Source: Halomonas campaniensis
GTDB taxonomy: Bacteria > Pseudomonadota > Gammaproteobacteria > Pseudomonadales > Halomonadaceae
Assembly (NCBI RefSeq): GCF_014193375.1
Contig: NZ_JACHZF010000002.1
Coordinates: forward strand, 62,001-126,000
Reading direction: 5' to 3'
DNA length: 64,000 nucleotides
Below are positions 28,926-48,815 of the stretch, in pieces (the first letter of the stretch is position 1; each line of letters begins with the position of its first letter). Under the pieces are notes generated by a model. It searched no databases. It was not told the DNA's origin and saw only the letters and a program-made list of their open reading frames with translations. The translations under genes and the position numbers were made by a program.

Positions 28926-31295
28926 ATGACCGAGCCGCATTCGCCGACCCGACGCTTCTGGCTGGGTGGCCGCCGGGCCGCCGAGCAGGACCGGTTCTTC
29001 CGCGAGGCCCTGGAGCCGCTGGGCTGGGAGGCCGGGGACGACCAGGCGTGGGACGCCGGCTGGATCACCGGCATGCCCGATCCCGCCCAGTTCCGGCGGG
29101 TCTCGCCGGCGCGCCGGCTCAACCACTTCCCCGGCAATGCGGCGCTGACCATCAAGAGCCGGCTCCATGCGAGCCTTTCCACGCTGCGCGAGCGCATCGT
29201 GGCGAGCCACGGGTCAGACAGCGACGCGGCCTCGCGGCTGGCGTTCTTCCCGCACGCCTGGGTGATGCCCCACGACTACCACGCCCTGCAGGAGGCCGCC
29301 CTGGCCAATCCCGAGCAGCGCTGGATCCTCAAGCCCACCAATGCCTCCAAGGGCAAGGGCGTGCGGGTGCTGCGCGATGCGGGCGAGGCGCCGCTGGCGC
29401 ACGACTGGATGGTGCAGGAGTACCTGGCCAATCCGCATACCATCCGCGGGCACAAGTATGTGCTGCGCCTATACGTGCTGATCAGCTCGCTGGAGCCCCT
29501 GCGGGTCTATCTCTACCGTCAGGGGTTTGCCAAGCTGGCCTCGGAGCCCTGGGACCCGGAGGATGCCGACAACCCCTACAGCCAGCTGACCAACCCGGAC
29601 ATCAACGCCCTCAACGACCGCGCCGAGGTGCCGGTGGAGTTCATCGACCTCGACCGCTACCGGACCTGGCTGCGTGACCAGGGGCATGACGACGATCGCC
29701 TCTTCGCCCGGATCCATGACCTGGTCGCCCTGACAATCATCTCGGCGGTGGATGCCATGCGTCGCCGCACCGCCGAGGTGGGGGCCGATCCGCGCGGCTG
29801 CTACGAACTGCTGGGGCTCGACTGCCTGGTGGATGACGCCCTCACGCCCTGGATCCTGGAGTGCAACCTCAGCCCCTCGCTGGGGATCTGCGCCGCCCCG
29901 GAGCACGGCGGGCAGATCGAGGAGGCCGTCAAGGGCGGGCTGGTGAGAGACATGATCGCGCTACTGGACATCCCCGGCAGCGCGCCCGCGGCGACCGGGG
30001 GAGACGACGATGACGCCTCGGCCCGACTGGTGGCCGAGGCCGGGGCGGAGCAGGCGCGAGCGGGTGACTTCCTGCGCCTGCTGCCGGCCAGCGACCCCGG
30101 CCGCTATCTGCCGTTCTTCTCGTTGCCGACCCTGGCCGACCTGCAGCTGGCCGAGGGCCTGGCGGGCCAGCCCCTGCCGCGGCCGGTGCTGCAGCGCCGC
30201 CGGGTGGCGGAGATGCTGGACGATGACCAGCTGGCGCTCCATGACACCCGCAGCGGGCGCTTTTATCGGCCCAACGACACGGCGGCGATGATCTGGCTGC
30301 TGGCCACGGAGGGGCTGGACCCCGATGCCATCGTCGATCAGCTGGCCCTGGCCGCCGCCCAGGGGGAGGGCTCCCCGGACCTGGCGGCCCTGCGACGCGA
30401 CGTCTGGCATACCCTGGGAGAGTGGTGTCGCGATGGCCTGCTCTGTCAGCGTGGCCCGGCCCTGGGCGACGCCCCGGCGACGGAGGCGGTGCCGGCGGCC
30501 CGTGCCCGGCCGCATCTGCTGCAGCTGGACCACGACGGCCGGCGCTGGGCGCTGGAAGTTGGCACCCCCGCTGCCCTGGCCAGGCTGACGCCGCTGTTCG
30601 GCGCGCGGCTCTCCCCGCTTGACGAGGTGGCAGCGATCGGGCTTCCGCGCCTGGCCCTGCTGCCTGCGACGACCGGCTACGCCCTGGTGGCCGATCACGC
30701 GGTGGTAAGGTCGCGGCTGATGCTGTCCCAGCTCGCCCCGGCGCTGCTGGCCCACCTGGTTGGCCAGGCCGCGCGGCCCGGTCGACCGGTGATCGATGCC
30801 GGCCTGCTGGTCACCCCGGAAGGGGAGGGGGTGCTCTGCCTGCTGCCCGACGAGGAGGCCTGCCGGGAGCGGCTGCAGCGGCTGACGGCCTCGGGGGGGA
30901 CCCTGACCCGCGGCCTGCGGCTGCCCATGATGGCGCCCGACGCGGCCGAGCCGCTGGGCCTGCCGCTGGCGACGCCCGCCGGTGAGGCGCCGGCGACGGC
31001 GCCCGGCAGGGTGACAATCCGGGCCGTGCTGGTGCCCGCCGAAACGGGGGAGGCGATGGCCCCCGCCGGGGTGCTGGACGTCATGGGGGCATTGCTGCCG
31101 CGCTGCATCACGTCGCCGGACGAGCCTCTGATGCCCGACGGGGTGACCGCCCTCGGCGACTGGGCCTCCCGGCTGGAACGCCTTGCCGTGGGCGACATCG
31201 ATCCCTCGTCCGCGGCCGATCCGCTGGTCGACTGGCTGGCCGAACGAGACATGGCCGCCCGCCGGCCGGCCGATCCGGCCATGGCGAGGGAGTGA
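28926..31295 (+). CDS. TTL-like ATP-grasp ligase fused to a PqqD-like domain
   Basis: A 789-residue cytoplasmic multidomain protein. Residues 1-350 are a tubulin-tyrosine-ligase-type ATP-grasp domain with all main motifs: Lys136 in WILKPTNASKGKG, VQEYLANP, KYVLRLYVLI, QLTNPDIN, ELLGLDCLVDD and the metal site WILECNLSPSL (Glu312, Asn314). Residues about 427-510 form a PqqD-like peptide-binding domain (LALHDTRSGRFYRPNDTAAMIWLL). The rest resembles HprK-related domains but shows no P-loop. TTL enzymes ligate amino acids to peptide carboxylates or Glu side chains; PqqD domains present leader peptides. A Glu/Gly-rich small protein gene follows directly and is the obvious candidate substrate. SD-like GGAG precedes the ATG. 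The system is not one I recognise. Confidence 0.88.
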   Translation: MTEPHSPTRRFWLGGRRAAEQDRFFREALEPLGWEAGDDQAWDAGWITGMPDPAQFRRVSPARRLNHFPGNAALTIKSRLHASLSTLRERIVASHGSDSDAASRLAFFPHAWVMPHDYHALQEAALANPEQRWILKPTNASKGKGVRVLRDAGEAPLAHDWMVQEYLANPHTIRGHKYVLRLYVLISSLEPLRVYLYRQGFAKLASEPWDPEDADNPYSQLTNPDINALNDRAEVPVEFIDLDRYRTWLRDQGHDDDRLFARIHDLVALTIISAVDAMRRRTAEVGADPRGCYELLGLDCLVDDALTPWILECNLSPSLGICAAPEHGGQIEEAVKGGLVRDMIALLDIPGSAPAATGGDDDDASARLVAEAGAEQARAGDFLRLLPASDPGRYLPFFSLPTLADLQLAEGLAGQPLPRPVLQRRRVAEMLDDDQLALHDTRSGRFYRPNDTAAMIWLLATEGLDPDAIVDQLALAAAQGEGSPDLAALRRDVWHTLGEWCRDGLLCQRGPALGDAPATEAVPAARARPHLLQLDHDGRRWALEVGTPAALARLTPLFGARLSPLDEVAAIGLPRLALLPATTGYALVADHAVVRSRLMLSQLAPALLAHLVGQAARPGRPVIDAGLLVTPEGEGVLCLLPDEEACRERLQRLTASGGTLTRGLRLPMMAPDAAEPLGLPLATPAGEAPATAPGRVTIRAVLVPAETGEAMAPAGVLDVMGALLPRCITSPDEPLMPDGVTALGDWASRLERLAVGDIDPSSAADPLVDWLAERDMAARRPADPAMARE

Positions 31296-31504
31296 CAACC
31301 GTTGCGGCATTGGCGTGACGGGCTGGATAGCCAGGTTGGCAGGACAAACAGGACAAGATGGTACCGAGCAGAGGGTGGCGTCCATGGGTGGGCGTCGCCG
31401 AAGGGAAGTCAGCCTCGATGAGGAGGCTGGCGTCACTGCAAGACGGCGTGCTGCGACATGCCGTCCATCGCATCGCGAGATGCATCACCGAGGAGGTCAT
31501 GACC
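31296..31504 (+). other. Leader region between the TTL-PqqD and AEGE peptide genes
   Basis: A 209-base gap on the coding strand. It has no ECF-type element and no T-run terminator. The peptide gene may be read from the TTL promoter or from an unrecognised one here. Confidence 0.4.
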
Positions 31505-31798
31505 ATGACATTGCAAGACGAGAAACGCCGCAGCCTGCTGGGGCGTCTGGGTCGCCAGCTGGGCTACACGACTCCGGCGCTGCTGCTGGTTGCCAGCGGT
31601 GCGGCCTTCCAGGCAGTGGCCAGCGACACGGCCACCGAGGCGACCTACACCAGCGGCCAGGAAGCCCCGCTGATGCTGGCGGAGGCCCATGCCGAGGGCG
31701 GCGCGGAAGGCGCCGGTGAAGCCCAGGGCGAGGCTGAAGCGGAAGGCGAAGCCGAGGGTGAGGCTGAAGGAGAGGCCGAGGGCGAAGCCGGTAACTGA
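31505..31798 (+). CDS. Small AEGE-tail protein, candidate substrate peptide
   Basis: A 97-residue protein I do not recognise from named families. The N-terminus LQDEKRRSLLGRLGRQLGYT is basic with a twin Arg. A hydrophobic stretch follows (residues 22-40), then a Thr-rich linker, and residues 59-95 are an Ala-Glu-Gly-Glu tail ending in GN. The leader is nearly the same as in the AEGE-cytochrome encoded at 48090, which suggests recognition by a shared enzyme and export, possibly by Tat. AGGAGG lies eight bases before ATG 31505; a second ATG six bases earlier is too close to it. Likely function: a ribosomally made peptide or envelope protein modified by the preceding TTL-PqqD protein (inference). 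Confidence 0.85.
   Translation: MTLQDEKRRSLLGRLGRQLGYTTPALLLVASGAAFQAVASDTATEATYTSGQEAPLMLAEAHAEGGAEGAGEAQGEAEAEGEAEGEAEGEAEGEAGN
31679..31789 (+). repeat. In-frame Ala-Glu-Gly-Glu repeat
   Basis: Imperfect 12-base units encoding AEGE, written with varied Glu and Gly codons (GAG/GAA, GGC/GGT/GGA). Codon variation argues that selection keeps the protein repeat and that it is not a fresh slippage product. Confidence 0.85.
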
Positions 31799-31904
31799 CG
31801 CCTCGCCCGCGACTGACCGAGGGCCGGTCCGCGCGCCATGGGCGCCGGCCCGGCCTTCCCCGAATCGCTCATGTCACCCCACCGGTAACCTGGAGAACCC
31901 GGCC

Positions 31905-32471
31905 ATGACACAGCCTGCATCAGGACAACCCCGCCCGCTGGAGGGGCTCATCGAGGAGAACCTCATGGCGCTGGCCCAGCTCAAGGGCCTGCTGGATGAC
32001 CTGACTCCTGCCGCCTACCGACAGCCCTTCGGCGCGGACGGCCGCCATACCCTGGGCAAGCACGTTCGGCACATCATCGACCACTATGATGCCCTGCTCG
32101 GCGGCCTCGAGGCCGGCGGAACGTCCCTCGACTACGAGCATCGCCGCCGTGACGAGGTGCTCGAGCAGTGGCCCGCCCGGGCCGCCCAGCGGGTCACCGA
32201 CATCCAGGCCGCCCTGCTGGCGCTGGCCGACCAGACGCCCCCGGCGTCCCTGACCCTGGCCTATCCTGTGGGCGAGGAGCCGCTGGCCCTGTCCACCAGC
32301 CTCGCCCGTGAGCTGGCTTTCCTGACCAGCCACACCATCCACCACATGGCGATCCTCGGCCTGCTGGCCGAGCCGCTTGGCCTGGCACTTCCCGAGTCGT
32401 TTGGCGTTCACCCCTCGACCCTGCGCCACTGGCGGCGGGAAGCCCTGCCGGTGATGGCGGAGGGGGCGTGA
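31905..32471 (+). CDS. DinB-family protein
   Basis: A 188-residue helical-bundle protein. DinB-fold metal ligands are plausible as His in GKHVRHIIDHYDAL and HTIHHMAIL (the paired histidines near the end of the fold). DinB-like proteins bind zinc or nickel, and several act as thiol-dependent enzymes; this one has no assigned activity. It is the third gene in the TTL-PqqD run. Its stop overlaps the next start (TGATG), so it is coupled to the DUF302 gene. ATG 31905 is preceded by GGAG. Confidence 0.85.
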   Translation: MTQPASGQPRPLEGLIEENLMALAQLKGLLDDLTPAAYRQPFGADGRHTLGKHVRHIIDHYDALLGGLEAGGTSLDYEHRRRDEVLEQWPARAAQRVTDIQAALLALADQTPPASLTLAYPVGEEPLALSTSLARELAFLTSHTIHHMAILGLLAEPLGLALPESFGVHPSTLRHWRREALPVMAEGA

Positions 32472-32968
32472 TGGTCACGACACGGGGGGGTTCATGGTGG
32501 CTGGCCTTGCTGATGGTGCTGCTGCTGGCTGCTCACGCCGCGGCCGACGCTCGCTGGCCCGAACAGGGTTGGCGGGTCCTGCCGGTGTCATCGACCTATT
32601 CCGAACTGCTGGAGGCCCTGCGTGAAGCGGTCGAGGCAGAGGGCATGTTCATCGTCACCGAGGCAGGCCCTACCGAGGCGGCTGCCCGACGCGGTGAGAC
32701 GATCCCCGGTAACCGTGTAGTGGGGGTCTTTCGCAACGACTATGCCGTGCGCACCCTGCGCCTCAGTGTCCCGGCAATGATCGAGGCGCCGATCCGCTTC
32801 TATGTCACGGAGAACGATGATGGCAGCGCCACCCTCGCCTGGAAGACCCCGAGCCATGTCCTCGCGCCTTATCTCGAGGAGGGCGGTGAGGCATTGGACG
32901 AGATCGGCCGGGAGCTCGATGACGTGTTCGACGCCATCGGACGACGGGCCCAGGCCGCCGCGCAGTAG
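32471..32968 (+). CDS. Secreted DUF302 protein
   Basis: A 165-residue protein with an N-terminal signal peptide (WWLALLMVLLLAAHAAADA). The mature domain matches DUF302: STYSELLEALREAVEAEGMFIVTEAGPTEAAARRG, then VVGVFRNDYAVRTLRL and a DGSATLAWKTPSHVLAPY strand. DUF302 proteins are small periplasmic or cytoplasmic domains found with sulfur, metal or redox genes; their role is unproven. A second DUF302 protein is encoded at 37745. Start ATG 32471 overlaps the DinB stop. Confidence 0.85.
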   Translation: MVTTRGGSWWLALLMVLLLAAHAAADARWPEQGWRVLPVSSTYSELLEALREAVEAEGMFIVTEAGPTEAAARRGETIPGNRVVGVFRNDYAVRTLRLSVPAMIEAPIRFYVTENDDGSATLAWKTPSHVLAPYLEEGGEALDEIGRELDDVFDAIGRRAQAAAQ

Positions 32969-33202: not shown

Positions 33203-33257
33203 AGGGTCTCGCCGGTGCGCAAGCACCCGGGCAATGCGTGAAACGTTCCAAGGTACC

Positions 33258-33737
33258 ATGGAGGTGAAAGTGAGAAAGGCACTGGGTCTATTGCTGCTCA
33301 GGGTGTCGCTTGGCGGTCTGCTGCTGGTGTGGGGGGTGAACAAGATTGTCAATGTCGATCACAGCCTGGCTATCGCCGACAATTTCTATGCCGGCTTTCT
33401 GTCTAGCGAGTTCCTGCTGCCGCTGTGGGGCGTTTCTCAGCTGGTGATCGGCCTGCTGGTGATCATCGGGCTGGCCAGGCGGTGGGTCTATCCCCTGCAA
33501 CTGGTGATTAACGGGGCGTCCCTGCTGGCCGTCTTCCCCTCGGTGATCGACCCGTGGGGCTGGTTCCTGGAAGGCACCAATGTGCTGTTCTATCCCTCAT
33601 CGATCATCCTGGCGGCAAGCCTGGTGATGATGGCCTTTCGCGACGAGGACCGCCTCGCCCTGGATGCCAGGCGGAAGTCACGGCCCAGCACCTGGGTGGG
33701 GCGTCACCAGTGTGGCCAGGTGGTGCGCCAGAGGTAG
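33258..33737 (+). CDS. DoxX-family membrane protein
   Basis: A 159-residue inner-membrane protein with four hydrophobic helices. The family opening is seen in ALGLLLLRVSLGGLLLVWGVNKI, followed by helices at LLPLWGVSQLVIGLLVIIGLA, VYPLQLVINGASLLAVF and VLFYPSSIILAASLVMMAF. DoxX-like proteins occur with thiosulfate oxidation, oxidative-stress and ECF-controlled gene sets; the molecular role is not settled. The start is MEVKVRKALG at 33258, preceded by AAGG; MRETFQGT at 33234 is an alternative. It converges on the DUF3047 gene with a 22-base gap. Confidence 0.87.
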   Translation: MEVKVRKALGLLLLRVSLGGLLLVWGVNKIVNVDHSLAIADNFYAGFLSSEFLLPLWGVSQLVIGLLVIIGLARRWVYPLQLVINGASLLAVFPSVIDPWGWFLEGTNVLFYPSSIILAASLVMMAFRDEDRLALDARRKSRPSTWVGRHQCGQVVRQR

Positions 33738-38693: not shown

Positions 38694-38755
38694 AGGATCA
38701 TGGAACACATTCAATGTGATCCTGGTAATAAAACATCAACGGGGAGATGAAGACC

Positions 38756-39166
38756 ATGAAAACTTCAACCATCATTTCGACTGCCTTATTGACCGCTTCC
38801 CTGACCATGGGGGTCGCGACTCAGGCTTCCGCCATGGCAGGCCACAATACCTTCACCCTGGAGTCCGGCAATACACCGTCCCGCCTGGTGCCCATTGTCG
38901 ACCACTATCGCTTCGAGGTGGAGAATCCTGGTCACCTGCATGTGACCAGCCACCTCTGGAGCCCGGGGGCGGCCACCGGAAGGATGCGGGCCGAGCTTGT
39001 CGACGGCAGTGGCCGAGTGGTCGCGCGGGCCCAGTCCAATGGCAGGGGCTTTGTCCTGAATCAGAGCCTTCAGCCAGGGAGCTATACCCTTCAAGTGGAT
39101 GGTTCCACCCTGGGGGGGCGCAAGGAAACATCACAGCGCTACTACCTCAAGACCGACCTGCGTTAA
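38756..39166 (+). CDS. Secreted PPC-like beta-sandwich protein 1
   Basis: A 136-residue protein with a signal peptide (MKTSTIISTALLTASLTMGVATQASA). The mature part of about 110 residues resembles a bacterial pre-peptidase C-terminal (PPC) domain: VDHYRFEVENPGHLHV, ELVDGSGRVVA and LQPGSYTLQVDG. Usually PPC domains are appended to secreted proteases; here the domain stands alone. It is paralogous to the proteins at 40145 and 40629 (closest to 40145). ATG 38756 has GGGGAG at nine bases; ATG 38747 directly abuts it and is less likely. Function unknown. Confidence 0.85.
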   Translation: MKTSTIISTALLTASLTMGVATQASAMAGHNTFTLESGNTPSRLVPIVDHYRFEVENPGHLHVTSHLWSPGAATGRMRAELVDGSGRVVARAQSNGRGFVLNQSLQPGSYTLQVDGSTLGGRKETSQRYYLKTDLR

Positions 39167-39261: not shown

Positions 39262-39879
39262 TCATCTTGCCGTTTCCTCCTTCAGCCAGCCCTTCTGCAG
39301 GCAGGCTCGCAGCTTCAGGCGGGCGCGATGCAGAATGACCCAGCAGTTGTTTTCCCTGATATCGAGTTCCCTGCAGATCTCCTCGGTGGAGAGCCCCATC
39401 AGCTCCCGTAGCGAGAAGACCCTAGCCGTGTTGTCCGGCAGCGTGATCATGCAGGCATCGAATACCTGCCAGAAGTGCTCGTTCTCGAAGACCTGGTCCG
39501 GATCCCCCCAGCTGGCCGGCCGGGCATGGTCCTGCCAGCGCCCGTTCTCCTGGAACTGCCGGTCGATGGCATCGTCGTCGCTCTCGTCATCCAGGGGCTG
39601 CAGGCGGCCCTGACGTTTCTGGAAGCGCATCACATCGAGGATCTTGTACTTGAGGATACCGAAGACCCAGGTCTCGTAGCCCGAGCGTCCGGCGAAGCTG
39701 GCGTCCTTCTCGATGGCGGCCATCAACGCCTCCTGTACGGCGTCCTCGGCCAGGGCGTTGTCCCTGAGGTGAAGTCGGGCGAAGGAGAGCAGGCGGGGCC
39801 TGACCGCCGCCAGTCGTTCCATGCGGGTGGGGGAGGCTGCCAGGGCGGCATCGTCCTTGGGGGAGGGCTCGTCGGTCAT
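39262..39879 (-). CDS. ECF-type sigma factor
   Basis: A 205-residue sigma-70 family factor with only regions 2 and 4. Region 2 spans about residues 28-90 (FARLHLRDNALAEDAVQEALMAAI and YETWVFGILKYKILDVMRFQKR). Region 4 covers about 148-196 (LPDNTARVFSLRELMGLSTEEICRELDIRENNCWVILHRARLKLRACL). The acidic linker is longer than usual and ends in a WGDPDQVFENEHFW segment. The zinc anti-sigma factor encoded at 38211 is the likely partner. An element like those before its presumed targets lies upstream (39958-39986), which suggests autoregulation. Confidence 0.92.
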   Translation of the reverse strand: MTDEPSPKDDAALAASPTRMERLAAVRPRLLSFARLHLRDNALAEDAVQEALMAAIEKDASFAGRSGYETWVFGILKYKILDVMRFQKRQGRLQPLDDESDDDAIDRQFQENGRWQDHARPASWGDPDQVFENEHFWQVFDACMITLPDNTARVFSLRELMGLSTEEICRELDIRENNCWVILHRARLKLRACLQKGWLKEETAR

Positions 39880-40144: not shown

Positions 40145-40555
40145 ATGAAACGTTCCACGATGATGACCACGGCGCTGCTCGCCGGCATGCTCACCATGGG
40201 CCTGGCGACCCAGTCATCCGCCATGGTGACCAATGGCACCTTCGAACTCAAGAATGGCAATACGCCATCGCGCATGATCCCGGGAGTCGACCACTATCGC
40301 TTCGAGGTGGACAGCCCCAGCCAGTTGCGCGTGGAGAGCCAGCTCTGGAGCCCCGAGGCGGCCGGCGGCAGGATGAAAGCCGAACTTCGCGATGGCAACG
40401 GTAACGTGGTCGCACGCTCCAATTCGCGCGGCAAGGACTTCGTCCTCCAGCAGAGCCTTGCGCCGGGCCGCTACGTCCTGGAGGTGCATGGCTCCCCGCT
40501 GGGAGGTCGCCAGGAGTCCACACAGCGTTACAACCTGAGTACAGACCTGCGCTGA
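40145..40555 (+). CDS. Secreted PPC-like beta-sandwich protein 2
   Basis: A 136-residue paralogue of the 38756 protein, with a signal peptide (MKRSTMMTTALLAGMLTMGLATQSSA). The mature domain has the same strands (VDHYRFEVDSPSQLRVESQLWSPEAAGG, AELRDGNGNVVARSNS, LAPGRYVLEVHGSPLGGRQEST) and the same ending TDLR. GGAAGGAG lies upstream of ATG 40145. The gene is divergent from the sigma factor and continues, after a 73-base gap with a hairpin, into a third paralogue. Function unknown; envelope-stress or secreted ligand-binding roles are possible. Confidence 0.85.
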   Translation: MKRSTMMTTALLAGMLTMGLATQSSAMVTNGTFELKNGNTPSRMIPGVDHYRFEVDSPSQLRVESQLWSPEAAGGRMKAELRDGNGNVVARSNSRGKDFVLQQSLAPGRYVLEVHGSPLGGRQESTQRYNLSTDLR

Positions 40556-40628: not shown

Positions 40629-41039
40629 ATGACGATCTCGAGATACATGTTGGCCACCATTGCTGCCGGTCTGCTCGTCGGTGGGCTGGGTCACGTCTCG
40701 CCGGTGTCGGCCAGTGCGCTCGCACCTCTTGTGGAGGGGCACAGCGAGACACGGCGCATCGACGGTGTCCATCGGTTCTTCCTCGATGTGGATGCCAGGA
40801 CGCGACTGCAGGTGGCAAGCCGGGTCTGGGCCGGAACCAGCCCGAATACGGTCAGTCTGAAGGCAGTCCTCCTCGATGGCGAGAACAGGCGCGTTGCCGA
40901 AGGTCGGCAGCGAAGAGGGGTGTTCGCGCTCGATGAGATGCTTGACGCCGGCCGCTACACGCTGGAGGTGAAGGGTCGATTGCTGGGTGGCAAGCAGGAA
41001 GCATCGAGTCGTTATTACCTGGTCACGCGAATGGACTGA
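40629..41039 (+). CDS. Secreted PPC-like beta-sandwich protein 3
   Basis: A 136-residue protein with a signal peptide (MTISRYMLATIAAGLLVGGLGHVSPVSA). It is the most divergent of the three local paralogues but keeps the pattern VHRFFLDVDARTRLQVASRVW, AVLLDGENRRVAEG and LDAGRYTLEVKGRLLGGKQEASSRYYL. The spacing of these blocks equals that in the other two proteins. It has no separate ECF-type element, so it is probably co-transcribed with the 40145 gene. The YiiX-like hydrolase gene follows after 45 bases. Confidence 0.82.
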   Translation: MTISRYMLATIAAGLLVGGLGHVSPVSASALAPLVEGHSETRRIDGVHRFFLDVDARTRLQVASRVWAGTSPNTVSLKAVLLDGENRRVAEGRQRRGVFALDEMLDAGRYTLEVKGRLLGGKQEASSRYYLVTRMD

Positions 41040-48089: not shown

Positions 48090-48815
48090 ATGTCACAGCA
48101 TGACGATAAACGCCGCAGGCTGCTAGGACGCCTGGGGCGACAGCTGGCCTATTCGGCGCCGGTGCTCGCCCTGGTGGCGGGCGGTGTGACCCTTCATGCC
48201 ACCGTCGGAGAGGATGAGACCGCGCCAGGCCTGTCCACGCTTTCTGCCACCTCGCTGCTTTTTGCCAACGCCCATGCTGAGGCCCATGCGGAGGGAGGCG
48301 CCGAGGCGCAGGGTGAGGCCGAGGCAGAGGGCGAAGCGGAAGGTGAGGCAGAGGGGGAAGCGGAAGGTGAAGCCGAGGGCGAGGCAGAAGGCGAAGCCGA
48401 AGCGGAGGGAGAGGCCGAGGCGGGGTCTGCCGATGCCGTGCAGCGTCCGGCGGGCTATGAACCGGCCTACAGCGAGAGCGGCGAGAACCCTCCCGAGCTG
48501 CTGGCCCGCGGCGAGGAGCTCTACTATGACACCTCGCTGAGCACCAACGGGCTCTCCTGTGCGACCTGCCACGGCAGTGATGGCCAGGACATGGGCTACA
48601 ACCCGACCTTCGAGGAGGCCTTCCCGCATCAGGTCGCCATGGCCGAGAACCAGTTCGGCATGTCCGAGGTGCACGCCGACGAGATGGTGCAGATCTGCAT
48701 GGTGGCGCCGATGCAGGGGAGTCCCCTCGACTGGGGGGGCGAGGCGCTGCCGTCGCTCTCGGCCTACATGGTGGAGGTCCAGCGCCGCGTGTCCGGCCAG
48801 CCCCACGACCTCTGA
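48090..48815 (+). CDS. AEGE-repeat protein fused to a c-type cytochrome domain
   Basis: A 241-residue protein. The leader MSQHDDKRRRLLGRLGRQLA is nearly the same as that of the 31505 protein, followed by a hydrophobic stretch (residues 23-38). Residues 59-112 are an Ala-Glu-Gly-Glu repeat. Residues about 130-235 form a small cytochrome c domain with heme motif Cys157-Ala-Thr-Cys160-His161 and Met in MVAPMQGSPL as a possible sixth ligand. Heme attachment needs the periplasm, so the leader must act in export or anchoring. GGAGGT lies seven bases before ATG 48090. I infer that the tail is modified by the TTL-PqqD protein before export and that the cytochrome transfers electrons in the periplasm. 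Confidence 0.9.
   Translation: MSQHDDKRRRLLGRLGRQLAYSAPVLALVAGGVTLHATVGEDETAPGLSTLSATSLLFANAHAEAHAEGGAEAQGEAEAEGEAEGEAEGEAEGEAEGEAEGEAEAEGEAEAGSADAVQRPAGYEPAYSESGENPPELLARGEELYYDTSLSTNGLSCATCHGSDGQDMGYNPTFEEAFPHQVAMAENQFGMSEVHADEMVQICMVAPMQGSPLDWGGEALPSLSAYMVEVQRRVSGQPHDL
48264..48425 (+). repeat. In-frame Ala-Glu-Gly-Glu repeat
   Basis: Imperfect 12-base units encoding AEGE, longer than the copy at 31679-31789 and placed between the leader and the cytochrome domain. Third-position changes are frequent. Confidence 0.85.

Follow-up and report, generated by a model that had tools for sequence, protein, structure and literature searches.

A TTLL-type ligase fused to a PqqD-like domain and its candidate AEGE-repeat substrates in Halomonas campaniensis and related bacteria

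We looked at a stretch of 64,000 nucleotides from Halomonas campaniensis (contig NZ_JACHZF010000002.1, positions 62,001 to 126,000), called the window below, which encodes a TTL-PqqD fusion enzyme, a short protein with Ala-Glu-Gly-Glu (AEGE) repeats just downstream of it and, further on, a second AEGE-repeat protein (Table 1). The original prediction had described the enzyme as a 789-residue fusion, and family matches supported both a TTLL-type catalytic domain and a PqqD domain of the RRE type (recognition element of RiPPs, ribosomally synthesized and post-translationally modified peptides). Pfam TTL (PF03133) matched residues 62-326 with an E-value of 2.1e-49 (168.7 bits against a cut-off of 20.1). 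The PqqD match to residues 438-506 of the whole enzyme (E 8.3e-5, 23.3 bits) was marginally below the cut-off of 23.4 bits, while the C-terminal piece of the window enzyme alone scored 24.7 bits, above it. That two-domain description stood for the TTL and PqqD parts but had overlooked a third part, at about residues 529-780. The predicted 97-residue protein with terminal AEGE repeats was read directly from the sequence. A similar tail had been announced for the protein starting at 48090, but this protein extends to 48815, and its repeat is an internal linker placed before a C-terminal c-type cytochrome domain with one CxxCH motif. The conserved leader, also predicted, was indeed found on these two otherwise different proteins, where a basic KRRxLLxRLxRQL stretch is followed by a hydrophobic YTAPALxLVASG-like stretch and an Ala-rich region, after which come the (A/G)E repeats. 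As in RiPP loci, a precursor-like gene adjoins the enzyme gene, the leader is conserved and the core is variable.

Table 1. Features of the enzyme-AEGE locus, of the AEGE cytochrome and of neighbouring genes in the window
Feature	Position	Strand	Remark
TTL-PqqD fusion enzyme (P0001)	28926..31295	+	single open frame, 789 aa
TTL/TTLL ATP-grasp ligase domain	29109..29903	+	residues 62-326
PqqD/RRE-type domain	30237..30443	+	residues 438-506
C-terminal domain, no family assigned	30510..31265	+	residues 529-780
Short AEGE protein	31505..31798	+	97 aa, C-terminal AEGE repeats
Leader of short AEGE protein	31505..31678	+	KRRxLLxRLxRQL, then hydrophobic YTTPALLLVASGAAFQAVA; signal-peptide-like
(A/G)E-repeat tail of 31505 protein	31679..31795	+	proposed modification region
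Leader of second AEGE protein (31505 type)	48090..48269	+	leader match
AEGE linker of cytochrome	48270..48425	+	proposed modification region
c-type cytochrome domain, SoxA/TsdA-like	48426..48812	+	CATCH; PF21342 1.7e-4, PF00034 0.0018, all Pfam matches below cut-off
DinB-family protein, third gene of conserved unit	31905..32471	+	PF12867 3.3e-11 on longer frame 31689-32471
DUF302 protein	32468..32968	+	frequent neighbour, 16/80 loci by open reading frame clustering
DoxX protein	33234..33737	+	occasional neighbour
ECF-type sigma factor	39262..39879	-	likeness to L085 protein by open reading frame clustering and eye

In total, 113 leader proteins from 87 loci were read, duplicates included, and 80 of them were short forms. 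When neighbouring AEGE units of one protein were compared, 313 of 360 differed in their DNA and encoded the same four residues, indicating that the repeat is preserved at the protein level. The short tails contain 38% Glu, 25% Ala and 22% Gly, and the alternation of Glu with small residues is common to them; 34 of the 80 end in ...EG. Neither Lys, Ser, Thr nor Cys is present in 24 short tails, including that of the window's 31505 protein, and Lys is present in 31. Tails with Lys were seen in Marinobacter (L097, L116 and L131; for example AEGKAKGEGE), where the modification chemistry could differ. An AxA-type motif was found in all 113 leaders, which is a weak sign of cleavage since the leaders are rich in Ala. 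Chromohalobacter and its relatives have a second short leader protein with xPEAE-type repeats instead of AEGE, such as SPEAEAGPEAE (L016:659-907, L018:4359-4631, L019:604-936 and L112:8869-9099).

The pairing of enzyme and AEGE protein recurs in Halomonadaceae, Marinobacter, Ectothiorhodospiraceae and one Competibacteraceae bin. For this, 80 named loci were kept of the 135 relatives present in the genome collection, initial and looser search patterns being combined. A protein with leader and (A/G)E repeats was encoded within 6 kb of the enzyme at 78 of these loci; none was found at L134, a 3-kb contig. The short leader-repeat gene lay downstream on the enzyme strand at 73 loci (68 measured, plus L098, L103, L106, L119 and L128), starting at most 300 bases past the enzyme stop at 59 of the 68 measured, and upstream on the opposite strand at L135 and L137.

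The association was also seen at the level of whole genomes. A leader profile was built from 46 leaders, some of them trimmed, namely the window's two and 44 from enzyme-bearing loci. Strong matches (best E-value of 4.4e-17 or lower) were obtained in 26 of 151 family genomes, the limit between strong and weak having been set after a gap in the E-values was visible; the weak matches in G006, G093 and G146 (E 0.004-0.007) were not counted. All 25 genomes with a full-length enzyme match had a strong leader match, a figure that is partly due to construction, as the profile leaders came from enzyme-bearing loci partly in the same 151 genomes, against one of the 126 others (G119). The informative half of this result is the near-absence of the leader from enzyme-negative genomes. 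Independently of the profile, a codon pattern for AEGEAEGE was found in 21 of the 151 genomes, and 20 of these 21 belong to the 26 that have some enzyme match; the reversed control pattern matched only in G080, twice. The AEGEAEGE matches in G032 (L030), the one genome outside those 26, and in G127 C2 (L042) lay in genes that by eye resemble dihydrolipoamide acyltransferase genes, and were judged to be chance. In seven genera with both enzyme-positive and enzyme-negative species (genus labels transcribed by hand), the strong leader match followed the enzyme with G119 as sole exception. Among 369 class-level genomes, for each of which at most 17 leader candidates were scored, strong matches were found in G000, G305, G416 and G511, the same genomes that have long TTL frames; of the last three, G511 is the one in which the PqqD part of the frame was made out, by inspection. 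Weak matches in G391 and G515 (E 1.6e-4 and 2.2e-4) were not counted as strong. A 372-aa TTL frame (L172:1300-2415; G344), in which no PqqD part was seen, was present in a genome without leader match. Fisher values calculated for the association ignore relatedness. Across loci and genomes, enzyme and AEGE proteins co-occur non-randomly, and the check for random association named in the original prediction has come out in its favour.

Orthologs of the 48090 cytochrome domain were found in 28 of the 151 family genomes. Sixteen of these genomes bear the enzyme, and in 15 of them the cytochrome carries leader and AEGE linker. Contrarily, 9 of the 12 enzyme-free genomes have a cytochrome with NPCA repeats and a different N-terminus. 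The remaining three are G119, which keeps AEGE, G020 (L216), whose cytochrome gene is devoid of leader and linker in a genome without TTL-PqqD match, and G118, in which the stretch upstream of the haem domain gives an unclear reading and the repeat was not readable. DUF6969 was found in 11 of the 151 genomes, ten NPCA genomes and G118, and always adjoined the cytochrome. One cytochrome therefore has two alternative linkers, and the type of linker tracks the partner gene. Of the indirect evidence that the linkers serve as substrates rather than decoration, this swap is the strongest. NPCA-repeat proteins, some of them fused to cytochrome c, adjoin DUF6969 (PF22308) at L234 (9467-10252 and 10318-11046), L236, L237 and L239; the NPCA/DUF6969 genomes include G005, G011, G013, G029, G032, G051, G073, G089 and G110. 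DUF6969 is a candidate partner or modifier of the NPCA repeats.

In a very large protein set, 471 relatives of the enzyme were found with E-values up to 0.001 (7995 candidates scored). Among the best 120 of them, lengths were mostly about 750-845 aa, the closest relative with a named organism was from Halomonas (87% identity), and source names were mostly 'PqqD family peptide modification chaperone', 'amylase', 'tubulin polyglutamylase TTLL5' and 'hypothetical protein'. The closest solved relatives of the catalytic domain by sequence were the polyglutamylases TTLL6 and TTLL7, and the predicted structure of the enzyme matched the TTLL6 fold over residues 6-398. An alignment and model of the family were made with 83 of the best 120 relatives. 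The TTL fold retains the ATP-grasp and metal residues, and the catalytic residues are invariant. By domain family and predicted fold, the 28926 enzyme is a TTLL-type (tubulin-polyglutamylase-like) ligase. The position equivalent to TTLL6 Q180 was basic in all 83 relatives, with Lys commoner than Arg, and that equivalent to H362 was Leu in all 83. The 80 named loci had been found via two peptide patterns, one of which includes the Leu at the H362 position, so the Leu count there is biased, but the 83 aligned proteins had not been found in this way. The L074 enzyme has Lys at the Q180-equivalent position. Lys or Arg at Q180 together with Leu at H362 resembles an engineered TTLL6 mutant, a likeness that we take as a mere pointer to a possible initiation-type activity.

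The C-terminal half was studied with 33 C-terminal pieces, the window's own and 32 from loci, chosen from 77 located plus the window's. PF05402 matched 32 of the 33 (best E 1.9e-13), and a profile of these pieces matched the RRE proteins of lasso peptides TbiB1 (E 6.2e-5) and TfuB1 (E 2.8e-4). Leader recognition is described as the role of RREs in the part of PMC12710340 used here, where fusion of an RRE to another domain is said to suggest functional partnership. The fused PqqD-type domain likely grips the leader common to the 31505 and 48090 proteins, as far as docking can be predicted from sequence. Residues 529-780 were mostly well folded in the model: most 10-residue blocks had confidence values (pLDDT) of 84-96, with lower values of 78 (641-650), 61 (681-690), and 79 and 74 (761-780). 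Family scans of the C-terminal pieces gave this part no Pfam or NCBIfam assignment above cut-off, and returned PqqD-type families and a few weak matches in one or two members each, among them HvfC/NGO1945_C, DpdG and GntR. When the PDB was searched with the C-terminal-piece profile, the sole match beyond the two lasso RREs was a weak one to lactate dehydrogenase (E 0.12). A single-sequence structure model of window positions 30195-31292 had a pLDDT of 42 and no usable fold. A degenerate HprK-like kinase, an idea that came from the appearance of the sequence, was backed by no search result and was rejected.

Altogether, it is very probable that the enzyme modifies the leader/AEGE proteins, and probable that it does so by ligating an amino acid to Glu side chains. 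The specific reading that we favour, with moderate confidence, is leader-guided addition of glutamate to the Glu side chains of the AEGE repeats. Docking of the leader by the PqqD domain would take place in the cytoplasm, the TTLL site would use ATP to activate carboxylates in the flexible repeat, and an amide would be formed between the activated carboxylate and free glutamate. The leader might afterwards direct export, bringing the modified, polyanionic stretch into the periplasm, where it would either hang free as a tail or tether a cytochrome c. The lineages bearing the system are salt-adapted, judging habitat from genus names. Since the segments look exported and polyanionic in such lineages, they may form a brush holding cations or protons beside the respiratory chain; this physiological role is the weakest step, and we propose it very tentatively and by analogy. 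Metal holding, by analogy with bufferins (PMC12452194), would be an alternative role.

Ligation of glycine by the same system, with initiation of glycyl branches as by TTLL3/TTLL8, is the best of the other explanations and still unlikely, for the enzyme is far nearer in sequence to the glutamylases TTLL6 and TTLL7 than to 5vlq, which we take to be TTLL3. Glycyl initiases likewise use internal Glu acceptors according to part of PMC12340829, which is in keeping with glycine. There is only a small chance that the carboxylates of the tail are joined to an amine other than an amino acid (polyamine, lipid head group or wall peptide), anchoring the protein to the envelope. This would fit with the varied amines that ATP-grasp ligases accept, with the exported look of the AEGE proteins and with the co-inheritance of a DinB-family gene and the enzyme, but the solved relatives by sequence are amino-acid ligases by name, and presumably in fact. 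About as improbable is that the enzyme extends the free C-terminus, as TTL, RimK or TTLL11 can. The short proteins expose their tails, which end in ...EG in the proportion given above, and TTLL11 can place Glu on a free C-terminal carboxyl (PMC11574253, in part); however, the repeat of the cytochrome is internal and its C-terminus is a haem domain, so that a C-terminal reaction cannot serve both proteins, and the long repeat would be left unexplained. The C-terminus, which the original prediction had offered as an acceptor, therefore fails as a general one, and side chains are favoured. Graspetide-type cross-links between Glu and Ser, Thr or Lys of the repeat would suit an ATP-grasp enzyme with a leader, a Glu-rich core and, in Marinobacter and other short tails, Lys; they are most improbable since the 24 short tails without Lys, Ser, Thr or Cys preclude internal cross-links as a general product, the window's 31505 tail has no Ser/Thr/Lys to pair with Asp/Glu, and the catalytic domain is TTL, the YheCD-type match being below cut-off. 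Equally improbable is that the enzyme targets something else while the AEGE proteins merely co-travel: the enzyme-substrate relation does rest on sequence association, but leader and AEGE occur on separate proteins of one genome, are nearly confined to enzyme-positive genomes sampled, and are exchanged in the linker swap with NPCA/DUF6969.

Several points weigh against glutamate addition guided by the leader. Besides the limits given above for the leader counts (partial construction, scored candidates per class-level genome, relatedness), G119 has an AEGE cytochrome and a strong leader match without any PF03133 match, and G008 has the enzyme, yet its cytochrome carries an NPCA-repeat linker. 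Only the cytochrome form of AEGE protein was present at L082, L124 and L138, and no leader-repeat protein was found in the 9.4 kb available at L130. In the active site, TTLL7 departs from the initiation signature, with Met and Arg in the Q180 and H362 positions, the predominant residue at the Q180 position of the family is Lys and not Arg, and the source review is ambiguous on H362. Finally, modification must precede export because the leader also resembles an export signal.

TTLL-type side-chain glutamylation is known from eukaryotes, where its targets are tubulin and a small number of further proteins. The system resembles TTLL6/TTLL7, and TTLL5 acting on RPGR, in its Glu/Gly-rich acceptor and, judging from sequence and predicted fold, in its catalytic family. 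As for TTLL5, the substrate would be recruited via a separate docking element; RPGR binds the TTLL5 CID via a helix (PMC13052805, in part). Unlike the eukaryotic TTLLs, the system is bacterial, involves no microtubule and has exported-looking substrates, which are predicted to dock by an N-terminal leader on the PqqD domain of the fusion. With RRE-dependent RiPPs (PqqD/PqqA, lasso B1) it shares the RRE fused to a modifying enzyme and the adjacent precursor-like gene, and it differs from them by its TTLL-type enzyme and its repetitive acidic cores, one of them inside a cytochrome. Neither a leader protease nor a dedicated exporter came to notice at the enzyme loci, although no search aimed at them was made. 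RimK belongs to a different ATP-grasp family. Like the enzyme proposed here, it adds glutamates to a protein, but its target is ribosomal protein S6 (PMC4431377, in part). Bufferins and oxazolins, which are MNIO RiPPs, likewise have signal-peptide-bearing precursors and clusters that include DoxX and sigma-factor genes, as far as described in part of PMC12452194; the AEGE repeats shown are without Cys, and no MNIO (DUF692) enzyme was seen among the neighbours examined, no dedicated search having been made. In alkaliphilic Bacillaceae, the role of an H+-capacitor has been proposed for an acidic N-terminal stretch lying, as the AEGE linker may do, between the membrane side and the haem domain of a membrane-bound cytochrome c (PMC12457358); the cytochrome is a different one, the part of that source used here mentions no modifying enzyme, and the role is transferred by analogy. 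As the original prediction supposed, no bacterial system of TTL-PqqD plus AEGE form was found described in the open-licence literature; the main texts of the RRE mining papers PMC12710340 and PMC7470986 contain neither 'tubulin' nor 'TTL'. If glutamate addition holds, TTLL-type side-chain glutamylation would also be bacterial, RiPP-guided and directed at exported proteins. TTLL chemistry could then be studied in a genetically compact model, RRE-guided modification of proteins would gain a new kind, and the AEGE repeats of a bacterial cytochrome would be explained chemically. The NPCA/DUF6969 swap suggests that another such pair awaits study. A further-reaching possibility is a bacterial equivalent of the tubulin code, in which an initiating TTLL glutamylase, steered by its RRE to a common export leader, would place branched Glu on acidic repeats tethering or accompanying a periplasmic cytochrome c, and in which such tethers would be exchangeable with the NPCA/DUF6969 tethers of sister species, each having dedicated enzymes; we judge it somewhat less likely than not.

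As for the neighbouring genes, a DinB-family gene was found at 73 of the 80 loci, at 72 of them on the enzyme strand, and belongs to the conserved enzyme-AEGE unit. It was missed at L096, L109, L119 and L134, where the contig ends about 0.8 kb or less from the enzyme, and at L082, L130 and L138, where the short AEGE gene is absent too; at L124 it is present and the short gene absent. DoxX, DUF302 and rhodanese-like genes were recurrent neighbours, and an ECF-type sigma factor gene was nearby in 50 of the 80 loci. The L085 protein, the reference for the window's sigma factor, matches Sigma70_r2 and r4_2. Three small secreted-looking proteins, alike by eye, are encoded near the sigma factor gene of the window at 38747-39166, 40145-40555 and 40629-41039.

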